Shown here in pieces: positions 46,964 to 58,325 of a stretch of 64,000 nt of DNA (its first letter is position 1; every line of letters starts with the position of its first letter). This DNA comes from Picochlorum sp. 'celeri' (lineage: Eukaryota > Chlorophyta > Trebouxiophyceae). The notes beneath the pieces were generated by a model that was given only the letters and a program-made list of their open reading frames with translations, ran no database searches and was not told the origin of the DNA. The position numbers and the translations under genes were made by a program. Location of the stretch: the NCBI GenBank assembly GCA_010909725.1, contig JAACMV010000006.1, positions 1 to 64,000 on the forward strand, in the 5' to 3' direction.

Positions 46964-47082
46964 TGGTTTCTTTGTTCGATTATTGAGGATTATTACACAT
47001 TAGAATTTGTTAGTATCGATGGAACTTCCATCATTGACAGTATTCATAGATGGGCATCATTGCTCCTGTATGGTGGCATTAT

Positions 47083-47118
47083 AATGAACCAATCTTGGTT
47101 CGAACCAGTTGGTTCATT
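47083..47118. promoter_or_regulatory. Nested palindrome upstream of LEU2
   Basis: Perfect 10-bp inverted arms (AATGAACCAA, 47083-47092; TTGGTTCATT, 47109-47118) enclose a perfect 12-bp palindrome TGGTTCGAACCA (47096-47107). The GAACC/GGTTC motif thus occurs four times with dyad symmetry. It lies 120-155 bp upstream of the LEU2 ATG and about 500 bp past the end of McrB-like copy 1. A dimeric regulator site is plausible; the sequence alone does not prove it. Confidence 0.45.
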
Positions 47119-47242
47119 GCAATGAATTCATTCCATGCCATCCATTGCTACATATAGCAGATGGATATCTACCTGTATGCATATGTCCATCTTGACCAAC
47201 CATGAAGGTTTTAATCACTCATTGCTGATTGCTCGTGGGTAC

Positions 47243-47509
47243 TCAATGAGAGCGAGAGAACTCACTACATTCAATTGAATGAATGTTCAGATGCTGATTT
47301 GATTTACAATCCTGTTGTAGTGCCCTAAACTCTGGAAACGAAGGTCTTTTTCCTTCAAGAGATTCCAGAAAAGTCATGAATACCTGTGTATATGGTAAGA
47401 GAGTACTGTACAGTCCTGGATCCTCGCGTAGCAAAGAGCAACACAATTCTTCATGCTTTGCCAAATTCGATTTTAAAAAGCTTGCACAGATTCCTCGTTG
47501 TACAACCAT
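47243..47509 (-). CDS. Small hypothetical ORF next to the McrBC-like cassette (doubtful)
   Basis: An 88-codon frame from an ATG at 47509, on the same strand as and just downstream of McrB-like copy 1. It is hydrophilic with several Cys and a YTQVFMTFLESLEGK helix. I recognise no domain and it has no counterpart beside copy 2. It could be a small gene or a chance frame. Confidence 0.2.
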   Translation of the reverse strand: MVVQRGICASFLKSNLAKHEELCCSLLREDPGLYSTLLPYTQVFMTFLESLEGKRPSFPEFRALQQDCKSNQHLNIHSIECSEFSRSH

Positions 47510-47621
47510 TCTTATATGTGCATTAAAAATGTATCTGACTTTAAAAATATGCGGTATAATTGAGGAACGTATCGCGATTGTTTGGTGCCTGATCACAGGG
47601 CCTCACTCATGAGTGAGATGA

Positions 47622-49439
47622 TCATCTATCAGTTATGTACTTGGACAATATATCCCTGATCGGGGTTCTGTTTTCGTCCCAAAGCTTCTTCAACTGTCGA
47701 GATACACCATCCTTTAAGAGAATTATTCTTGTTGGGGTATTGTTGAGCATAGTTGATCCAGTTTCTTCTCGGAACTGTTCTAAACTAAGGGCATTACCTG
47801 AAATGAAATTATGGAGGCTGTTGTGACCCTCCATCTGTCCCCAGAATGAAGAAAGCTTTATCCTGACCCTTTGCAATGTTTTCTCGGATTCAATATTTGA
47901 ATTCTCTTTCCAATGATTCAATCCATCATCAATTATCTGGGATGGTGGCGATGGACCTTCAATAATATGCCCTCTTGCAAATATTGTCTGGGCAACTGTT
48001 CTATCTCCACCAGTACGGCGGAAAAATACAGTATCGTGCGGCCTCATTATTTGATTATGTGCCTTGATACCAAATTGTATCACTGTATCTGCTTGCAGTC
48101 TTTCTTCCAGGTATGCCACAAAATTATAAATATCAGAGGATGTGTGGAACAGAAAAGTGTTTGGGGACACCTGTACTTCTAACTCTCTGATGCGACGTTT
48201 TACCACAGCCACCAGCTTTCCTGGCATGATCCCGCGCCGAAGAATTCTATTTCTGATTAGAGAGTCTGAATTGGTGTTTTGGTTGAAATTATTCTTTATA
48301 TCATCCAGTAAATTGTCAACAATTGCCTCAGTATGGCCCTGAAGAAGATTTAATCTTAAATTACTCTCCATTGAATCACAGGGATATTTCCCATTCTCTT
48401 CTAAGGAATATGTGCTGGCATCCAAGACCACACGTGCACCCACCAGCCGATTGGCATTCAGTGCGGGGTCAACCATGAAGTCTGCAGTCTCACCCATAAA
48501 GTCATCTCTGCATGGGTTGCCCGTCAAGATGATTCGAAAGTTGGATGGAATGAAGTATAGATCATCAGGTGTAGTCGCCTGCCCCACATTGCCTTGCAAG
48601 ATGTGAGGTCCCCAGTCATCCCTGTTATCCTCCATTTCCTGCCAGCTGTCTGGTCCATACGCCCTGAGCTCCTCCTCAAAGAAGTTTCCCAGCAGAGACA
48701 TGAAATCACTCACTCTATTCCATTCATGTAGAATAAACACGTATCGAGCGTCGGGATGCGCACGGGCGTCGCGGATTATCGTAGACACAGGCCCCAAGTA
48801 CTCCTGGCCATTGTGCATGTATCTGAACAGCCGTTGCTCTGTCAAGGTGTTGCACCCATTGGTCACGATCAGGTACCCACTATTGCTGTTGTTGGCTTCG
48901 GATATGTACATCATTGCTATTTGCTCCACCAGGGTCGTCTTACCGCTCCCTGCTCTTCCCTCAACGAGCATGATGCGATTATTCACCAGGTGATCAAAAT
49001 ATGCTTTCAGGAAGGTTCTGCACCTGAGTTTTTGCTCATCCAAGTCATCCTCTCTCAAATAAAAGAGTTTTTCTCCGATGAAATCGAATTTATCGTCTTC
49101 GTGAGTAAGGTCAAGCAAGGTTTGGCATGGTCGGCCCACTCTACAGAAGGAGTGAATATCTAGCAGGAAAGTTCTTGCATTCTGGTCACCATGTGGTGCA
49201 TGCGCATGTCCCTGTTGATGATGGGGCAAGCCCTCAATTTGGTCAGGCGTCACCACATTCGGCGGGTATCTCCCCTCTCTTGGAGGACCTTCATCAGTTC
49301 TTGGCCTCACGTTGCGTTCAGGACGATGATCCGCTGCACCATCATGAAGGTCATCATTCGCCTCTGGGGCAACCCTCGCAGGTCGCCTCTGCCCAGAAAC
49401 ACCTTGAGAAGTGCCTGAACTCGCTCCGTCGTTCATCAT
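47622..49439 (-). CDS. McrB-like AAA+ NTPase, copy 1
   Basis: An intronless 605-aa frame. Residues 1-85 are disordered and Pro/His/Arg-rich. The AAA+ module (about 130-337) has Walker A GRAGSGKT (161-168), a Walker B-like VFILHEWNR (234-242), where His-Glu-Trp-Asn-Arg stands for the McrB-type DExNR, and a sensor block YFIPSNFRIILTGNPCRDD (295-313), matching the McrB 'YIIGTMNxAD' element. A NANRLVGAR arginine segment (328-336) follows. The C-terminal ~268 residues (lid helix MPGKLVAVVKRR and beyond) differ sharply from copy 2. McrB uses GTP to translocate DNA for its partner McrC. The N-terminal DNA-binding domain of bacterial McrB is absent. Family membership is inferred from motif order and from the McrC-like neighbour. 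Confidence 0.75.
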   Translation of the reverse strand: MMNDGASSGTSQGVSGQRRPARVAPEANDDLHDGAADHRPERNVRPRTDEGPPREGRYPPNVVTPDQIEGLPHHQQGHAHAPHGDQNARTFLLDIHSFCRVGRPCQTLLDLTHEDDKFDFIGEKLFYLREDDLDEQKLRCRTFLKAYFDHLVNNRIMLVEGRAGSGKTTLVEQIAMMYISEANNSNSGYLIVTNGCNTLTEQRLFRYMHNGQEYLGPVSTIIRDARAHPDARYVFILHEWNRVSDFMSLLGNFFEEELRAYGPDSWQEMEDNRDDWGPHILQGNVGQATTPDDLYFIPSNFRIILTGNPCRDDFMGETADFMVDPALNANRLVGARVVLDASTYSLEENGKYPCDSMESNLRLNLLQGHTEAIVDNLLDDIKNNFNQNTNSDSLIRNRILRRGIMPGKLVAVVKRRIRELEVQVSPNTFLFHTSSDIYNFVAYLEERLQADTVIQFGIKAHNQIMRPHDTVFFRRTGGDRTVAQTIFARGHIIEGPSPPSQIIDDGLNHWKENSNIESEKTLQRVRIKLSSFWGQMEGHNSLHNFISGNALSLEQFREETGSTMLNNTPTRIILLKDGVSRQLKKLWDENRTPIRDILSKYITDR

Positions 49440-49928
49440 TACTTTTCCTCAAATATCTCTTACAAACTAGGATGTCTCGAAATATTTCTAGAATCGGTCC
49501 TCTCGAGACAGAGAAGAGGCCTTATTGTGGACCCCAGAAAATCACGACTGTATTCTCTCCGGGATCGTTGCTTTCCCTTCTTCAATGTAACCACCAATTG
49601 GTCCTTGCAATGAAAGGAAAAAAAGCAAGATACTTGCGACGTTGCTTTGAAGGGTGACGGAGTACAGTGGTATACCAAAATTCTATTTGATTCCGTTGCT
49701 GTGGGGTGCCTGATTTAAAGCCGCTCTTGCCCTGACGTCTTTCTGAATGTCCCATCAGACCTGGATTCAGTGGGTGGTTGGGACAAGCCGGTTTAGTCCC
49801 TCCCCGGTACCGGGTCTAATCCAGTGTGGCGTGTGGTCTTCTATAGAAGGTAGATATGAGAAAGCCCGCATCAACAATTCCCAAAGACGAAATTCCTGAT
49901 TTCTCGCTACATCTGGCTTGACTCCGTA
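49440..49928. promoter_or_regulatory. Divergent promoter region of McrBC-like copy 1
   Basis: 489 bp separate the divergent McrB-like and McrC-like starts. The region is largely shared with 54656-55129. It contains a perfect 12-bp palindrome, CCCGGTACCGGG, at 49803-49814, conserved in copy 2 and about 115 bp before McrC. Co-regulation of the two genes from this region is likely. Confidence 0.5.
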
Positions 49929-51266
49929 ATGGTCATCGTAAATTTTGAGGAGAGATTGAATAGACTATATTTGGCATACTCAAGCAGGTATGCTGCAGAC
50001 GAGGAGAGTCTGGAGAGGGATGATATGGAAAGGGATCTCGACATTGCAAGCAGAAATGATCCAAGGGCGAATCCAAATATTCCACCAAGAACCAGATGGT
50101 GCGGAGCGGTTTTTGATCCAACCTCCTTCACATACAGAAGCATTTTTGGAAATGCATATGATGGGTACATTCAGCAAGAAGTCATCAACAGCTGGGTGAG
50201 GCATTCTGATATTACACTGGGTATACAAGAGCTTGGAGTTGCTTCGTACAAGGATAGTATAGAGTCAATATGTGCAAATATCACAAACTCTGGGCCGCTT
50301 CCACGCTCAAGGCCTGAATATGTGCTTGGGGCTGCCAGGTATCCCCTCGGTGCCATCATCCACGGTCAAACTCTCCCAACCGGTGAGAACGTGCAGCTAA
50401 TACCTTCCATCAGAAGAAACACAAAATTATGGACGTGCATTCGTGGATGTCTGCAATTGCTGCGCAAAAGGCTATCTGACGAACACGCTGCCTGTCAGCT
50501 AGTACATGGTGGTCGATTGGAAGGGGGTGTAGAGGACACTTGGCGAAAGCTTCGAAATTTGGTTTCATCAACTGAGTATGGTTTACAATTACGGGGTGTT
50601 ACCAAAACGATAGGAGAAGAGAATGCTACCGAACTATTGAGTCAAATATTGCAGAGATGGCAGGGTGCTCATGCACAGAGAAGCATTTTGGAGGACTTGA
50701 AAATGGTCTTGTCCGGGGAACATGCATCTAATAGAATGTTAGATGTTGAAATCATTCCACCTCGTATCAATGCAGAGTACCTCGTATGGGGCCCTCATCT
50801 CTTTGAGAAAGCACTCAAAAGAGAAATCTCTGAGAAGCTCGCTACAAACAATAATGAATTCAGGGTGCGTGGTAGCCCTGTAAACTTTGACTGCGTGCAT
50901 GACAGTACCATTCGTCTTCGACCAGATATTGTGATAGAGTCAAACGAGACACAGGGAAGAATCTTAGGGTGTATCGATGCCAAATTGTACAGAGAGATAG
51001 ACAGATCAGACACCTTTGCATTTGGGTTGAAAATGGACGTGTACCTCTCAGCGTGCGAGCGACTGAATCGAAGCGAAAGAAAGCTTAAAGGCGTGACATT
51101 TGTGGGACTATATGGAGAATCTGACCAAGCAGATGGTTACCAAAATCGTAGAGGACATCACATGATTTGTTGCCTTCACTTGTATGATAGAGACTTACGA
51201 AAAGTTCAGAAGGAGTTCAATTACAAGGTTATCGACGCATTGCGGTTTTTACAAGTATTACAATAA
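49929..51266 (+). CDS. McrC-like protein with PD-(D/E)xK nuclease signature, copy 1
   Basis: An intronless 445-aa frame, divergent from the McrB-like gene. The N-terminal ~270 residues are mixed alpha/beta and unassigned. The C-terminal third has the McrC layout: YLVWGPHLFEKALKREIS helix, then TIRLRPDIVIES and GCIDAKLY, which give the PD-x(n)-(D/E)xK catalytic pattern with PD near residue 330 and DAK about 17 residues later, followed by a FAFGLKMDVYLSA helix as in other PD-(D/E)xK enzymes. McrC is the nuclease and NTPase activator of McrBC restriction complexes. Bacterial mcrB and mcrC are co-directional and often overlap; here they diverge. The McrC call rests on the motifs and the partner gene. 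Confidence 0.72.
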   Translation: MVIVNFEERLNRLYLAYSSRYAADEESLERDDMERDLDIASRNDPRANPNIPPRTRWCGAVFDPTSFTYRSIFGNAYDGYIQQEVINSWVRHSDITLGIQELGVASYKDSIESICANITNSGPLPRSRPEYVLGAARYPLGAIIHGQTLPTGENVQLIPSIRRNTKLWTCIRGCLQLLRKRLSDEHAACQLVHGGRLEGGVEDTWRKLRNLVSSTEYGLQLRGVTKTIGEENATELLSQILQRWQGAHAQRSILEDLKMVLSGEHASNRMLDVEIIPPRINAEYLVWGPHLFEKALKREISEKLATNNNEFRVRGSPVNFDCVHDSTIRLRPDIVIESNETQGRILGCIDAKLYREIDRSDTFAFGLKMDVYLSACERLNRSERKLKGVTFVGLYGESDQADGYQNRRGHHMICCLHLYDRDLRKVQKEFNYKVIDALRFLQVLQ

Positions 51267-51401
51267 TGGTACTAGAACTATGACAATAGAGGTCAACCAC
51301 CAGAAGCAGAAACACATTGCACTCTGCAGAGTCTCTATGAAGACTGGCAGATGGATATCTAGGGCATAAACCTTCAACTGAAAAACACAGAAGTACTACT
51401 A

Positions 51402-52496
51402 CTATAGTATCGATGCAGCCACATGGCGCATGAGATCAGCCATCCCTCGCATCGGATCATGGTACTCCAGTCCAGTATCCTGTGATATTCGGCCACCCTG
51501 GAAGGACATGGGCTTGTTCAGGCAGGATGCCACCAAATCCCACGGCACTTTATCAGTCATCTTTGATGCAATCCACAGCATCCATTTGGGGGCTCCTAGA
51601 CGAGGTAGTCGATGCTTTGGAAATTCCTGTCGAAGAGATTGGATCACATCCCTCATCCCCAGGCTATGCTGCCCATGGGCCAGAATATACCGACCATGAC
51701 AGTTGCTATTTATAGCAACCAAGATGTGCGCCGCCGCCACGTCATCCAAATCCACGTATGGAAAATGATAGTTGGGTATACATGGCCACAGCTTCCCTTT
51801 CATCAACAGCGTCGCAAACTCGACCAACTCGCTCTTCACCTGCGTGACTGGTGGCCCCACAACAAACCCTGGAAGAAGGACCACCAACCTCCATGGTTTT
51901 CTACTGCCACGATCCTTCTGACTCTCATTAAATAAATCCCACGCTCTCTTTTCCGCCAAGACTTTACTATACGCATACGGAAACTTGGACAGAGATGCCA
52001 CCTCGTCCCAATCCTCCTCTGTATACACATGATCAGCCCCTCGCTCCCAATTATCCCCATGCACCGCCGACAACGACCCCGTATACACCAATGTATCCAC
52101 TGTCCCTGATCTCTCTATAGCTCCAACCACATGCTCCACCCCCTCCACAGCAGGGCGAATCACCTCCTCCTCCACCTGCCCCCGAGCAACCCTCACCGTC
52201 ACCGGAGAGGCCACATGGATGACCACATCACACCCACGCACAGCCTCATCAAACGATCCCTTCTCTCTTAAATCTGCTTGAAATAGTTGTAATCGATCCT
52301 TGGCTCCATCCATCGCCCTCATGGTATCGTATCGGGTGTCTTTTGGATTGCTTCGAACGGTTCCATGAACCGTATGCCCAGCACGCAGTAATCTCTCAAC
52401 AATAGCCCCACCGATATACCCACTGGCACCAGTCACACAGAATACTCTTTTATGTGTTGTTGCACTGGATTCATCTGGATAGAGTGGAAGTCTCAT
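51402..52496 (-). CDS. Dihydroflavonol-reductase/cinnamoyl-CoA-reductase-like SDR
   Basis: A single exon of 364 aa. N-terminal VTGASGYIGGAIVERLL is the NAD(P)-binding glycine motif of extended short-chain dehydrogenases. YAYSKVLAEK is the catalytic Tyr-x3-Lys, and TGSLSAVHG supplies the Ser. The gene is related to dihydroflavonol 4-reductases and cinnamoyl-CoA reductases, but the substrate cannot be told. It lies intact between the two McrBC-like copies, convergent with McrC copy 1 (136 bp between stops). It shows no sign of being part of that system and may simply be trapped in the duplication. Confidence 0.88.
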   Translation of the reverse strand: MRLPLYPDESSATTHKRVFCVTGASGYIGGAIVERLLRAGHTVHGTVRSNPKDTRYDTMRAMDGAKDRLQLFQADLREKGSFDEAVRGCDVVIHVASPVTVRVARGQVEEEVIRPAVEGVEHVVGAIERSGTVDTLVYTGSLSAVHGDNWERGADHVYTEEDWDEVASLSKFPYAYSKVLAEKRAWDLFNESQKDRGSRKPWRLVVLLPGFVVGPPVTQVKSELVEFATLLMKGKLWPCIPNYHFPYVDLDDVAAAHILVAINSNCHGRYILAHGQHSLGMRDVIQSLRQEFPKHRLPRLGAPKWMLWIASKMTDKVPWDLVASCLNKPMSFQGGRISQDTGLEYHDPMRGMADLMRHVAASIL

Positions 52497-52912
52497 GGGG
52501 TTTTAGCATCAGAAGGAGAAAATGGATTCGCTTGGTTTTGAAACGCGATAGTGATAGACGATTGATATATTCTGATTTCTGATGCTCGTATCTTGTATAA
52601 GAACATAAATTAGATTTCTTACTCCTGGATTGCCATTCTAGTAGTACATAAATAGCACTATCCTGCATGCAGGTGTTACTGATGGAATTGGGGATAGCTG
52701 AAGGGCAAACTATACCGAGGAGAACTGTATGTTTTGGATCCTCTTGCAGTATTCTATGATTTGTTGAATAGTAATGGTTAGAAAGAAATAGGGCAACGCA
52801 GTCATATAGAGCCAAAAAATTCCAAGAAAGGGAATGGCCATTGTTGTACAAAGCTGAGACTTGCCATTTCTTCCTTCAGATGCTGTGAGGGATAAGCATG
52901 TGTAAATGACTT
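52497..52912. other. Intergenic region, nothing recognised
   Basis: 416 bp between the SDR start and the end of McrB-like copy 2. No similarity to the region flanking copy 1 was found, so the duplication does not extend past the McrB 3' end on this side. Confidence 0.5.
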
Positions 52913-54655
52913 TCACAGATCAGCAGCAGCAGTTGAAATCTTATCTTTAAAGTGCCTTATAATTCTTTGAAGTTTTTCTTTCCCATTGTCGTTTGCTACA
53001 TTATCTAATGTAATTATTGGCTGTTGGCCTGGCCCTCTAATGAATTTAGACACACCACCTGATGACGAGGTTATCTCCCTCATCTCATCGCTATCAATCT
53101 TATTTAAGTTACTTGCTATTTCTACGACAGGGTATATGGCCCTTCGTTGGTTGAATCGATCATTGTCGTAAACTGTAATGTTGCCCTCTTGTGGCTCTCC
53201 TGCCACCAAATATATTGCTCGCAGTGTGGTGCGATCAGTATCCTTATGGTAATCAAATATGAGATCTCTTCCTCTTCTCAATCTCCCATCTCTTCTTGGA
53301 TCTGCATAGCTATTTCGAGCCACAAATCTGTTTGGGGAAGTTCGTGTTTGGAATTGTTGATATGTTTCTTCATCATGCACTGACATGAGCACCCTGTAAT
53401 CCGGAAAAGGGAAAGTAGAATCAGTTTGATCAACGGGTCTTAAAATCAGATCCGCTACTCGGCGTTTCACCTCTGATACCACCTTCCCAGGCATGATTTC
53501 GTGTCTGCTGTTTTGGATACTGTTGATTAGATCATTTATGCTTGCTTCTGTATACCGCACGGAAAGAAACATGCGTAAGTTGTCCACAATGAAGTCAAAT
53601 GGAAATCTGCCGGGTTGATCAAGAGAAAACAGCGTTTCGTCGAGAGAAACACGTGCACCCACCAGCCGATTGGCATTCAGTGCAGGGTCAACCATGAAGT
53701 CTGCAGTCTCACCCATAAAGTCATCTCTGCATGGGTTGCCCGTCAAGATGATTCGAAAGTTGGATGGAATGAAGTATAGATCATCAGGTGTAGTCGCCTG
53801 CCCCACATTGCCTTGCAAGATGTGAGGTCCCCAGTCATCCCTGTTATCCTCCATTTCCTGCCAGCTGTCTGGTCCATACGCCCTGAGCTCCTCCTCAAAG
53901 AAGTTTCCCAGCAGAGACATGAAATCACTCACTCTATTCCATTCATGTAGAATAAACACGTATCGAGCGTCGGGATGCGCACGGGCGTCGCGGATTATCG
54001 TAGACACAGGCCCCAAGTACTCCTGGCCATTGTGCATGTATCTGAACAGCCGTTGCTCTGTCAAGGTGTTGCACCCATTGGTCACGATCAGGTACCCACT
54101 ATTGCTGTTGTTGGCTTCGGATATGTACATCATTGCTATTTGCTCCACCAGGGTCGTCTTACCGCTCCCTGCTCTTCCCTCAACGAGCATGATGCGATTA
54201 TTCACCAGGTGATCAAAATATGCTTTCAGGAAGGTTCTGCACCTGAGTTTTTGCTCATCCAAGTCATCCTCTCTCAAATAAAAGAGTTTTTCTCCGATGA
54301 AATCGAATTTATCGTCTTCGTGAGTAAGGTCAAGCAAGGTTTGGCATGGTCGGCCCACTCTACAGAAGGAGTGAATATCTAGCAGGAAAGTTCTTGCATT
54401 CTGGTCACCATGTGGTGCATGCGCATGTCCCTGTTGATGATGGGGCAAGCCCTCAATTTGGTCAGGCGTCACCACATTCGGCGGGTATCTCCCCTCTCTT
54501 GGAGGACCTTCATCAGTTCTTGGCCTCACGTTGCGTTCAGGACGATGATCCGCTGCACCATCATGAAGGTCATCATTCGCCTCTGGGGCAACCCTCGCAG
54601 GTCGCCTCTGCCCAGAAACACCTTGAGAAGTGCCTGAACTCGCTCCGTCGCTCAT
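52913..54655 (-). CDS. McrB-like AAA+ NTPase, copy 2
   Basis: An intronless 580-aa frame. Residues 1-336 equal copy 1 apart from the first few (MSDG against MMNDG) and carry the same Walker A, HEWNR and sensor motifs. From residue 337 on the sequences part. The first ~100 residues after the break are still recognisably homologous (for example MPGKVVSEVKRRV against MPGKLVAVVKRRI), but the tails differ in sequence and length, here with an Arg/Asp-rich segment (RRDGRLRRGRD) and a GGVSKFIRGPGQQ block. In a McrBC-type complex the motor would be constant and the tail variable. The tail could set target choice; this is inference. Confidence 0.75.
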   Translation of the reverse strand: MSDGASSGTSQGVSGQRRPARVAPEANDDLHDGAADHRPERNVRPRTDEGPPREGRYPPNVVTPDQIEGLPHHQQGHAHAPHGDQNARTFLLDIHSFCRVGRPCQTLLDLTHEDDKFDFIGEKLFYLREDDLDEQKLRCRTFLKAYFDHLVNNRIMLVEGRAGSGKTTLVEQIAMMYISEANNSNSGYLIVTNGCNTLTEQRLFRYMHNGQEYLGPVSTIIRDARAHPDARYVFILHEWNRVSDFMSLLGNFFEEELRAYGPDSWQEMEDNRDDWGPHILQGNVGQATTPDDLYFIPSNFRIILTGNPCRDDFMGETADFMVDPALNANRLVGARVSLDETLFSLDQPGRFPFDFIVDNLRMFLSVRYTEASINDLINSIQNSRHEIMPGKVVSEVKRRVADLILRPVDQTDSTFPFPDYRVLMSVHDEETYQQFQTRTSPNRFVARNSYADPRRDGRLRRGRDLIFDYHKDTDRTTLRAIYLVAGEPQEGNITVYDNDRFNQRRAIYPVVEIASNLNKIDSDEMREITSSSGGVSKFIRGPGQQPIITLDNVANDNGKEKLQRIIRHFKDKISTAAADL

Positions 54656-55129
54656 TATTACTTTTCCTCAGATATCTCTTTCAGACTCGGATGTCTCGAA
54701 ATATTTCTAGAATCGGTCCTCTCGAGACAGAGAAGAGGCCTTATTGTGGACCCCAGAAAATCACGACTGTATTCTCTCCGGGATCGTCGCTTTCCCTTCT
54801 TGTATGTAACCACCAAGGAAAGGAAAAAAAAAGCAAGATACTTGCGATGCTGCTTTGAAGGGTGACGAAGTACCGTGGTATACCAAAATTTTATTTGATT
54901 CCGTTGCTGTGGGGTGCCTGATTTAAAGCCGCTCTTGCCCCTACGTCTTTCTGAATGTCCCATCAGACCTAGATTCAGTGGGTGGTTGAGACAAGTCGGT
55001 ATAGTCCCCCCCGGTACCGGGTCTAATCCAGTGTGGCGTGTGGTCTTCTGTAGAAGGGGTAGATATGAGAAAGCCCGCATCAACAATTCCTAATCTCTCT
55101 CTACATCTGGCTTTACTTCATACTTCATA
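54656..55129. promoter_or_regulatory. Divergent promoter region of McrBC-like copy 2
   Basis: 474 bp between the divergent starts, alignable to copy 1 with scattered substitutions and small indels (for example a shorter stretch near 54815). The palindrome CCCGGTACCGGG is kept at 55010-55021. Confidence 0.5.
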
Positions 55130-56467
55130 ATGGTCATAGTAAATTTTGAGGAGAGATTAAACAGACTGTATTTGGCATACTCAAGCAGGTATGCTGCAGA
55201 CGAGGAGAGTCTGGAGAAGGATGATATGGAAAGGGATCTCGATATTGCAAGCAGAAATGATCCAAGGGCAAATCCAAATAATCCACCAAGAACCAGATGG
55301 TGCGGAGCGGTTTTTGATCCAACCTCCTTCACATACAGAAGCATTTTTGGAAATGCATATGATGGGTACATTCAGCAAGAAGTCATCAACAGCTGGGTGA
55401 GGCATTCTGATATTACACTGGGTATACAAGAGCTTGGAGTTGCTTCGTACAAGGATAGTATAGAGTCAATATGTGCAAATATCACAAACTCTGGGCCGCT
55501 TCCACGCTCAAGGCCTGAATATGTGCTTGGGGCTGCCAGGTATCCCCTCGGTGCCATCATCCACGGTCAAACTCTCCCAACCGGTGAGAACGTGCAGCTA
55601 ATACCTTCCATCAGAAGAAACACAAAATTATGGACGTGCATTCGTGGATGTCTGCAATTGCTGCGCAAAAGGCTATCTGACGAACACGCTGCCTGTCAGC
55701 TAGTACATGGTGGTCGATTGGAAGGGGGTGTAGAGGACACTTGGCAAAAGCTTCGAAATTTGGTTTCATCAACTGAGTATGGTTTACGATTGCGGGGTGT
55801 TACCAAAACGATAGGAGAAGAGAATGCTACCGAACTGTTGAGTCAAATATTACAGAGATGGCAGGGTGCTCATGCATTCAGAAGCATTTTGGAGGACTTG
55901 AAAATGGTCTTGTCCGGGGAACATGCATCTAACAGAATGGCGGTAGATATTGAAATCATTCCACCTCGTATCAATGCAGAGTACCTCGTATGGGGCCCTC
56001 ATCTCTTTGAGAAAGCACTCAAAAGAGAAATCTCTGACCAGATTGCTACAAACAATAATGAATTCAGGGTGCGTAGTAGGCCTGTAAACTTTGACTGCGT
56101 GCATGACAGTACCATTCGTCTTCGACCTGATATCGTGATAGAGTCAAACGAGACTCAAGGACAAATTGTAGGATGCATTGATGCAAAGTTGTACAGAGAG
56201 ATAGACAGGTCAGACACCTTTGCATTTGGGTTGAAAATGGATGTGTACCTCTCGTCGTGTGAGCGAATTAATCGAAGCGAACGAAAGCTTAGAGGCGTGA
56301 CATTTGTGGGCCTGTATGGAGAATCTGACCAGACAGATAATCACGCATGGGAAAGAGGACATCATATGATTTGTTGCCTTCACTTGTATGATAAAAGCTT
56401 ACGAGAAGTTCAGGAAGACTTTGTTGATACGGTTAGAAATGCATTGCGATTTTTACAAGTATTATAG
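55130..56467 (+). CDS. McrC-like protein with PD-(D/E)xK nuclease signature, copy 2
   Basis: An intronless 445-aa frame. The first ~215 residues differ from copy 1 at only about four positions. Differences then become frequent, for example around residues 272-295 (AVDIE, DQI, SRP), at QIVGCIDAK, in the TDNHAWE segment and in the last 25 residues. The catalytic pattern LRPDIVIES and IDAKLY is unchanged, so both copies should be active if either is. Keeping two intact frames with clustered replacements suggests both are under selection. Confidence 0.72.
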   Translation: MVIVNFEERLNRLYLAYSSRYAADEESLEKDDMERDLDIASRNDPRANPNNPPRTRWCGAVFDPTSFTYRSIFGNAYDGYIQQEVINSWVRHSDITLGIQELGVASYKDSIESICANITNSGPLPRSRPEYVLGAARYPLGAIIHGQTLPTGENVQLIPSIRRNTKLWTCIRGCLQLLRKRLSDEHAACQLVHGGRLEGGVEDTWQKLRNLVSSTEYGLRLRGVTKTIGEENATELLSQILQRWQGAHAFRSILEDLKMVLSGEHASNRMAVDIEIIPPRINAEYLVWGPHLFEKALKREISDQIATNNNEFRVRSRPVNFDCVHDSTIRLRPDIVIESNETQGQIVGCIDAKLYREIDRSDTFAFGLKMDVYLSSCERINRSERKLRGVTFVGLYGESDQTDNHAWERGHHMICCLHLYDKSLREVQEDFVDTVRNALRFLQVL

Positions 56468-56582
56468 CAATGTTCGCATTACAACTTTGACAAAAGAGGT
56501 CAGCCATCAGAAGCAGAAACACACTGCACTCTGCAGTCTTTATGAAGACTGACAGATATCTAGGGCATAAACCTTCAACTGA

Positions 56583-57118
56583 CCGGCCAGTCGTCTGGCC
56601 TGACTCAGGACATGGACGTCCATGGACACAGGGGACTGACAGGGTGACATCTAGCTCTTGCAACCATGGCTTGAACCCTTGAATTCTATTCTAAGGTATC
56701 AGATCTAGAAGAATATATGTCGGTATAGGGCTCTAGAGCACCAGATATCTGGATCTACATAACTATGTAGAGCCTCAAAGCGACCTTGCTGTCTCAGGGT
56801 CTCCCATTCTTTATGCTTACTTATCATTTCACTGTGAAATATTCAAACTGCAGTCTGACAATCATGCCCGATTGTGATTTGAATATTTACACCTATCAAA
56901 CAGACTCAAATCTATGCTACATGAAAGGCCAGGCATTGTGGCTCAAGATCACAGAGGAGGAGTTGACACACATCACTATGATGATGCCCTTACTATGACA
57001 TGGTGCTGCTAATCAAGTGATACGTGTGATTGCCAATCCATAGTAGCTTAGCTCCTCGCTAATTGAAAAATTATGAACATGTCTTGAACTCTTCAGATTA
57101 TCAGAAGCACAATTCAAC
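56583..57118. other. Intergenic region, nothing recognised
   Basis: 536 bp between McrC copy 2 and the protease gene. A 70-codon frame (56786-56998) has no recognisable content. Confidence 0.5.
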
Positions 57119-57970
57119 CTAGGTCCTCAATGCATCAAACTCGTAGTCCTCAATCGCTGAATCAATCCACTTTCTCCATCCCCTGATCTCTGTATACGCA
57201 CTGACTGAATTTCTGTCCCCGCACTTGAAATCACCAGGGCCATAGCTGACCACGCCAACGATAATATCCTCGGATGCTTTGGTACCTTCAGCCTTCCATC
57301 CCCTTCCAGGAATGATGATTGGTCCTCCAGAGTCGCCTTGGCAGTCAAGCTGCTCGTCTTCATCCAGTCCGGCTCCAAAGTGATCCTTTTCTAGATAATC
57401 GTCAAACTTATTCTCGGTCTCATAGTCTGACAGATGTGGCAGAGTGGCATACAGTAAGTCCTCTGAGTAATCATCTGACTCTGTCTCCCCATAACCTGCA
57501 ACGATGAGATCGCCCTTGACTTTAGTTCTGCTGCTCGCTATACGAGCTGGTTTGGTCTCCGCCAATTCTGTGAGGAAGAGGAGGGCAATGTCACCATACA
57601 TGCTTCCCCCCTTTTTATTTGGATTGTGTGCAGACGGTGCAATGACACCTTCAGCGATGAATGGGTCCACTTCTTCATCTTCTGAATAGTCTCTGAGGTA
57701 CACTTTGACTCTTCTTGCTGTCAACTTTCCATTGTCTCCATAGAAGCAATGAGCAGCACTGAGAACCACATCATCTCGAATGAGGCTACCACCACAAAGA
57801 AAGGACTCTCCCTTCTTATCCGTAATATCAAGTCGGGCAACATAGCGCATCAAATTTAAAGGTACTACATCGCCATATTGTATGCGAGAATTGGCCACAG
57901 CCTTTGGAAAAGACTGATTGCTTTCGAAATCACTGTTTGGTAAAGCATGTACATGTGCATACAATACCAT
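57119..57970 (-). CDS. Trypsin-like (S1) serine protease
   Basis: A 283-aa frame with the full S1 triad: His74 in LSAAHCF, Asp127 in YGDIALLFL and Ser214 in CQGDSGGP. A LCGGSLI segment precedes the His, and GVVSYGPGDFKCG follows the Ser as expected. S1 proteases are usually secreted and activated by cleavage; the N-terminus here (MVLYAHVHALPNS) is not a convincing signal peptide, so an upstream exon may be missing. The residue six before the catalytic Ser (position 208) is Leu rather than Asp, so trypsin-type cleavage after Arg/Lys is unlikely. Substrate unknown. Confidence 0.88.
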   Translation of the reverse strand: MVLYAHVHALPNSDFESNQSFPKAVANSRIQYGDVVPLNLMRYVARLDITDKKGESFLCGGSLIRDDVVLSAAHCFYGDNGKLTARRVKVYLRDYSEDEEVDPFIAEGVIAPSAHNPNKKGGSMYGDIALLFLTELAETKPARIASSRTKVKGDLIVAGYGETESDDYSEDLLYATLPHLSDYETENKFDDYLEKDHFGAGLDEDEQLDCQGDSGGPIIIPGRGWKAEGTKASEDIIVGVVSYGPGDFKCGDRNSVSAYTEIRGWRKWIDSAIEDYEFDALRT

Positions 57971-58325
57971 GTAGTATCAGGACTGCAAGGAAAGTCATCC
58001 TATACGATTGCAGAATTACAAGTTTTTTCACTGCAATTATTACATTTTTTTATATGTTCCAGCCTTACATGCCCGCGAGTACATGTTACAAGGGCCGGTT
58101 GTGATGCCAAGAAGTGGGTTCGCTTTTCTCGAGATCTCTAGAGATCTGGAGATCTGGCCAGATTCCATGGAATGACCCTGTCTAAAAAAATGAGGACATT
58201 CCTCTTTTGCGAATCGAGCAGATCGATTCCCTTGAAAGAGCCTTTACTCATCCCCTTTACTCGAGTAATGTAACGGATAATAAATACTGCATGCAGTGAA
58301 ACGAACAGTCGTGAAAACCAAGGAC
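57971..58325. other. Intergenic region with a 16-bp palindrome
   Basis: 355 bp between the divergent starts of the protease and SNase-like genes. A perfect palindrome AGATCTCTAGAGATCT lies at 58132-58147, followed by two more GAGATCTGG-like repeats. A missing signal-peptide exon of the protease could lie here too. Confidence 0.45.

Follow-up and report, generated by a model that had tools for sequence, protein, structure and literature searches.

A duplicated McrBC-like NTPase–nuclease gene pair present on one haplotype of the green alga Picochlorum sp. 'celeri'

One study of McrBC describes bacterial defence machineries of this kind as lacking eukaryotic homologues and gives MNxxDR(S) as the signature of McrB homologues (PMC7680126), and a prokaryotic census describes a small branch of McrB with an NxxxD signature (PMC11090510). 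Here we describe two divergent gene pairs in the green alga Picochlorum sp. 'celeri' (Chlorophyta; Trebouxiophyceae), each consisting of a P-loop nucleoside triphosphatase (NTPase) and a PD-(D/E)xK-type protein, called the nuclease below. They lie in the window, by which we mean the first 64,000 nucleotides (forward strand) of contig JAACMV010000006.1 (C6; assembly GCA_010909725.1). Our preferred reading is that each pair, or cassette, encodes an McrBC-like, NTP-driven nuclease with exchangeable recognition modules that is presumably defensive; we put the probability of this reading slightly below one-half (about 0.47).

NTPase 1 (605 amino acids; 47622-49439, minus strand) carries a Walker A motif of the form GxxGxGK[T/S] (GRAGSGKT at residue 161), HEWNR at 238, GNPCRD at 307 and NRLVG at 330, and ends in a C-terminal part that we call type A. 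A spacer of 489 bp (49440-49928), presumably a two-way promoter, separates its start codon from that of nuclease 1 (445 amino acids; 49929-51266, plus strand), in which PHLFEK lies at residue 289, RPDIVIE at 331 and IDAK at 349. The second pair has the same layout: NTPase 2 (580 amino acids; 52913-54655, minus strand), with GRAGSGKT at residue 160 and a type B C-terminal part, is followed by a spacer of 474 bp between the divergent start codons (54656-55129) and by nuclease 2 (445 amino acids; 55130-56467, plus strand), which is 93% identical to nuclease 1. A first-pass annotation of the sequence had proposed a duplicated McrBC-like pair with four open frames and intact catalytic motifs. All four frames are indeed open at the coordinates it gave; GRAGSGKT, HEWNR and GNPCRD occur in both NTPases, as do RPDIVIE and IDAK in both nucleases. 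The duplication itself is real as two divergent pairs, but it is only partial for the NTPases, which are near-identical to about residue 336 (241 of 241 positions in the core) and then agree at 31 of 73 positions in the following part and at 34 of 144 in the C-terminal part. At the local base composition, a stop-free run of 445 codons has a p of about 2e-11 per starting point, uncorrected for the number of starting points. The nuclease frames are not chance products, since three proteins labelled Picochlorum BPE23 or Picre1, the latter presumably P. renovo, match them at 85-87% identity.

Kinship of the NTPases with McrB was assessed with McrB and McrC alignments built from E. coli and 11 plasmid systems (12 of 13 fetched records, the unannotated record L034 being excluded). 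In a profile-profile comparison, the NTPase family matched McrB with an E value of 1.5e-8 and a probability of 95.5 over 156 columns that begin ahead of Walker A and reach the arginine-finger region, and none of 100 column shuffles reached this score. Against single McrB sequences, 11 of 12 were matched at E values of 7e-5 or lower and the twelfth at 0.013. The single-sequence controls gave 6e-4 for RecD, 9e-4 for an algal ClpB-like protein, 0.0014 and 0.085 for two algal MoxR-like proteins, 0.007 for RavA and 0.05 for HsdR; they represent a few AAA+ groups by single sequences, include no MoxR profile, and owe their ClpB-like and MoxR-like labels to inspection by eye. Three AAA_5 records (L046, L048, L052), translated in a wrong frame, are uninformative as controls. 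By this measure, the NTPase family is nearer to McrB than to the AAA+ proteins used as controls.

The similarity of the nuclease to McrC is weaker. The whole nuclease alignment matched the McrC profile with an E value of 9e-4 (0 of 300 shuffles as good), and its C-terminal half did so at 2.3e-4 over 136 columns (0 of 1411 shuffles), a signal that fades with thinner profiles. This alignment brings into register an LFE helix, a P/T-D-I element, D-A-K and later elements, with the algal RPDIVI...IDAK lying over T-D-I...D-A-K of McrC. Such a catalytic register is plausible for a PD-(D/E)xK-type active site.

Relatives of both proteins were sought in a set of 5.8 billion proteins. The nuclease has five, namely two from Picochlorum BPE23, one from Picre1, a jgi fragment and P0004 (49%), and a profile search with the nuclease alignment returned the same five among the best 8000 candidates scored. 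Eight relatives of the NTPase were found, likewise among the best 8000 candidates, and all named hosts of the pair's relatives are Picochlorum. Co-occurrence of the pair elsewhere, which the first-pass annotation named as a check, is seen in BPE23, where nuclease P0001 and NTPase P0007 have the adjacent locus tags M9434_002744 and M9434_002745, and the contigs given for them have the same length. P0004 and P0008 each come from one contig given as 3665 bases long, which suggests that they too are neighbours. Relatives in another Picochlorum sit on contigs of 2.29 and 0.83 Mb. The Picre1 nuclease relative, P0003 (eukprot), has only 336 amino acids and ends at LRPDIV, the first active-site motif. 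Searches with two short conserved patterns, which distant kin can escape, gave 28 and 25 matches in viral contigs (a phage collection was not searched) and 47 and 21 in GTDB contigs, with no relative among them, and a tblastn search of plasmids had zero matches at E values up to 1.

The C-terminal parts of the ten NTPases fall into about five groups: A (NTPase 1, P0006), B (NTPase 2, P0007, P0008), C (P0009, P0010), D (P0011, P0013) and E (P0012). BLASTP between groups mostly aligned just the 10-45 or so residues of the shared start; two weak matches depart from this (NTPase 1 with P0008 over 103 residues, E value 0.036; P0012 with P0013 over 27 residues, E value 0.36). Even within group C, P0009 and P0010 agree at 241 of 254 core positions and at 65 of 155 in the C-terminal part. 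The C-terminus of NTPase 1 is unrelated to that of NTPase 2, yet it shows 91.5% identity to a protein encoded on a different contig. Compared in windows of 40 residues across residues 1-320, NTPase 1 has 95-100% identity to NTPase 2. Its identity to P0007 of BPE23 is 70% in the first window and 92-100% in the later windows of this span; identity to P0006 is 31-60% in residues 1-120 and 80-95% thereafter. From residue 321 onward, P0006 matches NTPase 1 at 78-100% and P0007 reaches no more than 68%. Judged by these windows, NTPase 1 is a chimera of the shared core and a type A C-terminus. For the nucleases, P0002 comes nearest to nuclease 1 over residues 281-360, and P0001 to nuclease 2 over residues 361-440; in residues 361-400, however, nuclease 1 is closer to P0001 than to P0002, so the match between nuclease type and NTPase type is mixed.

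The two cassettes share an aligned repeat of 2.97 kb at 94% identity, within which divergence is very uneven. Counted from their common start, the first 1007 nucleotides of the NTPase genes contain 2 differences (48430-49436 against 53649-54655, minus strand), and similarity then drops abruptly where the C-termini part. A tract of 462 nucleotides in nuclease 1 (50082-50543, plus strand; codons 52-205) is identical at the DNA level to 55283-55744 of nuclease 2, without a single codon difference, while on both sides of it the genes have diverged to a synonymous divergence (dS) of about 0.24. The ratio of nonsynonymous to synonymous divergence (dN/dS) is 0.07-0.33 in the parts compared, and by this estimate the nuclease pair is under purifying selection. 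Because a nuclease dS of about 0.24 compares with dS values of 0.03 and 0.06 between the alleles of two flanking genes, the duplication looks older than the split of the haplotypes, and conversion looks to have re-homogenised the facing halves of the two cassettes.

The genome analysed comprises 27.41 Mb in 30 contigs; C6 and C28 are collinear through the window, and many other genes are paired on two contigs. This layout fits the published Picochlorum celeri assembly, which is described as a phased diploid of 27.43 Mb in two sets of 15 scaffolds with 46% G+C (PMC7225527). Each cassette protein has exactly two matches in a search of the genome, both inside the window, and both cassettes are present on C6 only and missing from its homologue C28. 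On C6, a stretch of 4448 bp (46964-51411) containing cassette 1 is replaced on C28 by 34 bp, and a stretch of 5807 bp (52497-58303) containing cassette 2 and a trypsin gene is replaced by 284 bp; these short C28 spacers have no alignment to the window at an E value of 1e-3. The order on C28 is thus an isopropylmalate-dehydrogenase-family gene (PF00180), 34 bp, an epimerase-family gene, 284 bp and an SNase-family gene (PF00565). Each alignment break (46963, 51412, 52496 and 58304) coincides with, or lies within about 10 bases of, a start or stop codon of a flanking gene, and the difference between the haplotypes is not a clean insertion. Near 27.96 kb, C28 carries 479 additional bases, the sole other break in the 84 kb compared. 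Among the observations that go beyond the first-pass annotation, this presence on one haplotype and the swapped C-terminal modules are the strongest.

Single-nucleotide divergence between C6 and C28 is raised around the cassettes: between 24 and 76 kb, the 4-kb bins have values of 1.65-4.46%, in a block of about 50 kb in which the cassette bins hold little alignable sequence. Bins outside this block have 0.18-0.9%, apart from those at 16 kb (1.97%) and 76 kb (1.06%); the published genome-wide divergence between haplotypes is 0.8%. The raised divergence may reflect an old or introgressed haplotype, or it could be normal heterozygosity lying beside tracts that have lost heterozygosity.

As for the neighbours, a gene of the NAD-dependent epimerase/dehydratase family (51402-52496; PF01370) sits between both pairs. 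The trypsin gene (57119-57970, minus strand; PF00089, 97 bits) lies within the second one-haplotype stretch; the closest other match to it in the genome has 39% identity, and most other trypsin-like matches are paired on two contigs. A short repeat at 58186-58255, just upstream of the SNase-family gene, matches six other places in the genome.

Several results weigh against kinship with McrBC. On the NTPase side, AAA+ groups outside our controls might match as well as McrB does. All ten family members have HEWNR at Walker B where all 12 McrB sequences have DEINR or EEINR, so that the acid has become histidine and only the glutamate and NR are kept; the signature is NxxxD (GNPxxD) in nine of ten members, against NxxD in McrB, and P0012 has neither. 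Scans against Pfam, NCBIfam and PADLOC (PHROGs were not scanned) returned matches centred mostly on the P-loop, with neither McrB nor McrC models among them; the best PADLOC match was mad8 (E value 2e-5 to 3e-5, about 95 residues), and Pfam AAA_5 reached 0.06-0.08. No Pfam domain matched where an N-terminal modified-base-binding domain would lie, the exchangeable part of the algal protein being C-terminal, though a domain of a novel kind may still lie at its N-terminus. With HMMER, the McrB profile gives the family only 4-13 bits. In a tree of AAA+ cores, MoxR is nested within McrB and branches are as long as 8.7 and 7.3 changes per column; the placement of the family is uninterpretable because its branch is too long. 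A search of sequences with solved structures returned two weak matches for NTPase 1 (E values 0.4 and 0.84) and nothing for nuclease 1.

The nuclease evidence has similar weaknesses. In five draws of 7 of the 12 McrC sequences, the match drops to E values of 0.001-0.15. Single McrC sequences (0.03-0.83) score no better than other single nucleases (0.18-0.82). The Mrr profile used as a control (seven sequences, L070 being excluded because its gene is cut) gave 0.35, a weak control since McrC against Mrr itself gives 0.72. The McrC profile yields at most 9 bits with HMMER, PF10117 matched neither the window proteins in hmmscan nor anything in a genome scan, and neither Pfam nor PADLOC had a match for the nuclease, NCBIfam giving a single meaningless one (E value 0.14). 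The N-terminal half does not match the corresponding part of McrC, the McrB-binding domain with its basic finger (E value 0.1 over 21 columns), and the two algal genes are divergent, unlike the McrBC operon. The check by curated profiles that the first-pass annotation had proposed thus failed to return either family. Its McrB-like assignment survives as a remote profile match with an altered Walker B acid and signature, and its McrC-like assignment as a weak alignment of the C-terminal half. Taken as a whole, the McrBC interpretation keeps the McrB similarity, a plausible catalytic register, the recurrence of the pair and a collinear locus, and lacks the curated models, the exact motifs and the N-terminal half of McrC.

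The same P-loop matches raise the question of whether the pair might instead be a STAND/NACHT (NLR-like) sensor system, in which the NTPase would be a switch with a ligand-sensing, variable C-terminus and the nuclease an effector that kills the cell or degrades DNA. NTPase 1 exceeds the Pfam NACHT cut-off (28.5 against 26.7 bits), which counts against McrB, and nSTAND3 and nSTAND_NTPase5 come next; P0008 matches NACHT over 87 of 167 positions, though at 25.0 bits it stays below the cut-off, and P0012 comes within 0.1 bit of that of nSTAND3. The variable C-terminal sensor, which looks ankyrin-like by eye in P0011 and P0013, suits STAND logic. However, the NACHT match of NTPase 1 covers the P-loop only (33 of 167 positions, as in NTPase 2, which fails the cut-off at 21.7 bits), and the similarity to curated STAND/NACHT models in the window NTPases spans 33-37 positions. 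The McrB match, by contrast, extends over its 156 columns and includes E-x-N-R and the P-x-N ... G-x-N strand, and we consider a STAND sensor pair unlikely. It is improbable, too, that the genes are Crinkler-type NTPase/restriction-endonuclease (REase) genes or domesticated NTPase-nucleases of transposons rather than relatives of McrBC. Crinklers with REase-type and NTPase domains are reported from free-living eukaryotes in PMC6131194 (citing Zhang et al. 2016), but here two genes encode the NTPase and the nuclease, Pfam gave no Crinkler or REase match, the genome search found only two copies of each gene, and neither one-haplotype stretch is bracketed by the arms of an inverted repeat. A DNA transposon likewise lacks support: just two copies, adjacent to each other, were found, and of 11 and 18 inverted-repeat pairs none spans both ends of a stretch.

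The restriction to one haplotype invites two further explanations. A selfish gene pair, either toxin and antidote or a driver, could be kept by its own transmission advantage; both cassettes are hemizygous inside the block of raised divergence, and the sharing of C-terminal types between P. celeri and other records is compatible with balancing selection. Yet the raised divergence may be no more than the usual heterozygosity left between tracts that have lost theirs, the cassettes show no visible antidote logic, and relatives occur in other Picochlorum as well, all of which makes this explanation, in our estimation, quite a long shot. It is very improbable that the cassettes were misjoined to the locus or misassigned to one haplotype through an assembly error or contamination. 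The 2.97-kb repeat between the copies, combined with a read N50 given as 9,250 bp in the assembly report (PMC7225527), means that placement could err. Against this, the G+C content at third codon positions of the four cassette genes (0.41-0.47) is near that of their neighbours (0.44-0.52), the relatives in another Picochlorum lie on the 2.29- and 0.83-Mb contigs, and many other genes have allele pairs. The locus is also collinear with the sister chromosome C28 on both sides, which supports the first-pass view that the cassettes are joined to algal flanking genes. The same base composition leaves a recent transfer from bacteria unsupported.

On the McrBC-like reading, the AAA+-type NTPase would assemble as a ring, its exchangeable C-terminal domain would steer this ring to a target, and the NTPase would power or permit cutting by the PD-(D/E)xK protein, the product of a separate gene. 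Intracellular defence against foreign nucleic acid, whether viral or mobile DNA, would be the most probable role of the pair, as its kinship, modular diversity and presence/absence polymorphism together suggest. Two cassettes with differing C-terminal modules may then provide two specificities, while gene conversion would keep the shared motor alike. What the target might be is limited by the host itself. The alga encodes a large cytosine-methylase-family protein (L058/L059 on C11 and C19) and one with an SRA domain (L062/L063 on C14 and C18), both represented by a pair of alleles. Plain cutting of DNA with 5-methylcytosine would endanger a host that marks its own DNA, and the idea of the first-pass annotation that the system would be a candidate defence against methylated foreign DNA is constrained by these genes. 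If host DNA is marked, the trigger could be another modification or structure, the activity could be regulated, or the substrate might not be DNA.

In the open-licence literature, covered by titles and the starts of abstracts among the matches listed (in one case 12 of 570), we found no paper reporting such a pair in algae or other eukaryotes, and none combining Picochlorum and McrB; two diatom papers contain the word McrB. If the pair is McrBC-derived and active, it would amount to bacterial-style immunity by nucleic-acid cutting in an algal nucleus, its specificity modules being swapped and maintained as polymorphisms. The fuller claim, that this is the first eukaryotic McrBC-type nuclease system, a present-or-absent immune locus with a motor kept by conversion and C-terminal modules apparently older than the species, is possible but doubtful. 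Removal of the cassettes would be a small and direct experiment, since Cas9 editing of Picochlorum celeri is reported and the locus is on one chromosome only.

Among known systems, the algal pair most resembles McrBC of E. coli. Both place the genes of an NTPase and a separate PD-(D/E)xK-type nuclease side by side, and they have in common the P-loop, E-x-N-R, a sensor asparagine, an arginine at the finger position and, tentatively, an McrC-like active-site register. They differ in (D/E)EINR against HEWNR, in NxxD against NxxxD, and in the RR of ALRRRF against one R (NRL); the exchangeable domain is N-terminal in McrB and C-terminal in the alga, the N-terminal domain of McrC has no algal match, and the host is a eukaryote. 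We call the family McrBC-like rather than McrBC because of HEWNR, NxxxD and the uninterpretable position in the tree. As described in PMC11090510, the NxxxD branch of McrB GTPases has the same one-residue insertion in its signature, a likeness by description only, but belongs to a prokaryotic census and is associated with methyltransferases; CoCoNuT systems are likewise McrB/McrC-derived sets with an altered signature and added modules, but have an NxD motif and long coiled coils where the algal family has NxxxD. STAND/NACHT NTPases (Pfam NACHT, nSTAND3) share the P-loop match and a variable C-terminal part, whereas the similarity to their models is short, at 33-37 positions in the window proteins and up to 87 in P0008. 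Crinkler effectors, as described in PMC6131194, combine eukaryotic NTPase and REase-type domains, whereas the algal pair consists of two genes and matches no curated Crinkler or REase model. Finally, the shuffling of C-terminal modules among the algal NTPases can be likened to the swapping of target-recognition domains in bacterial restriction systems.

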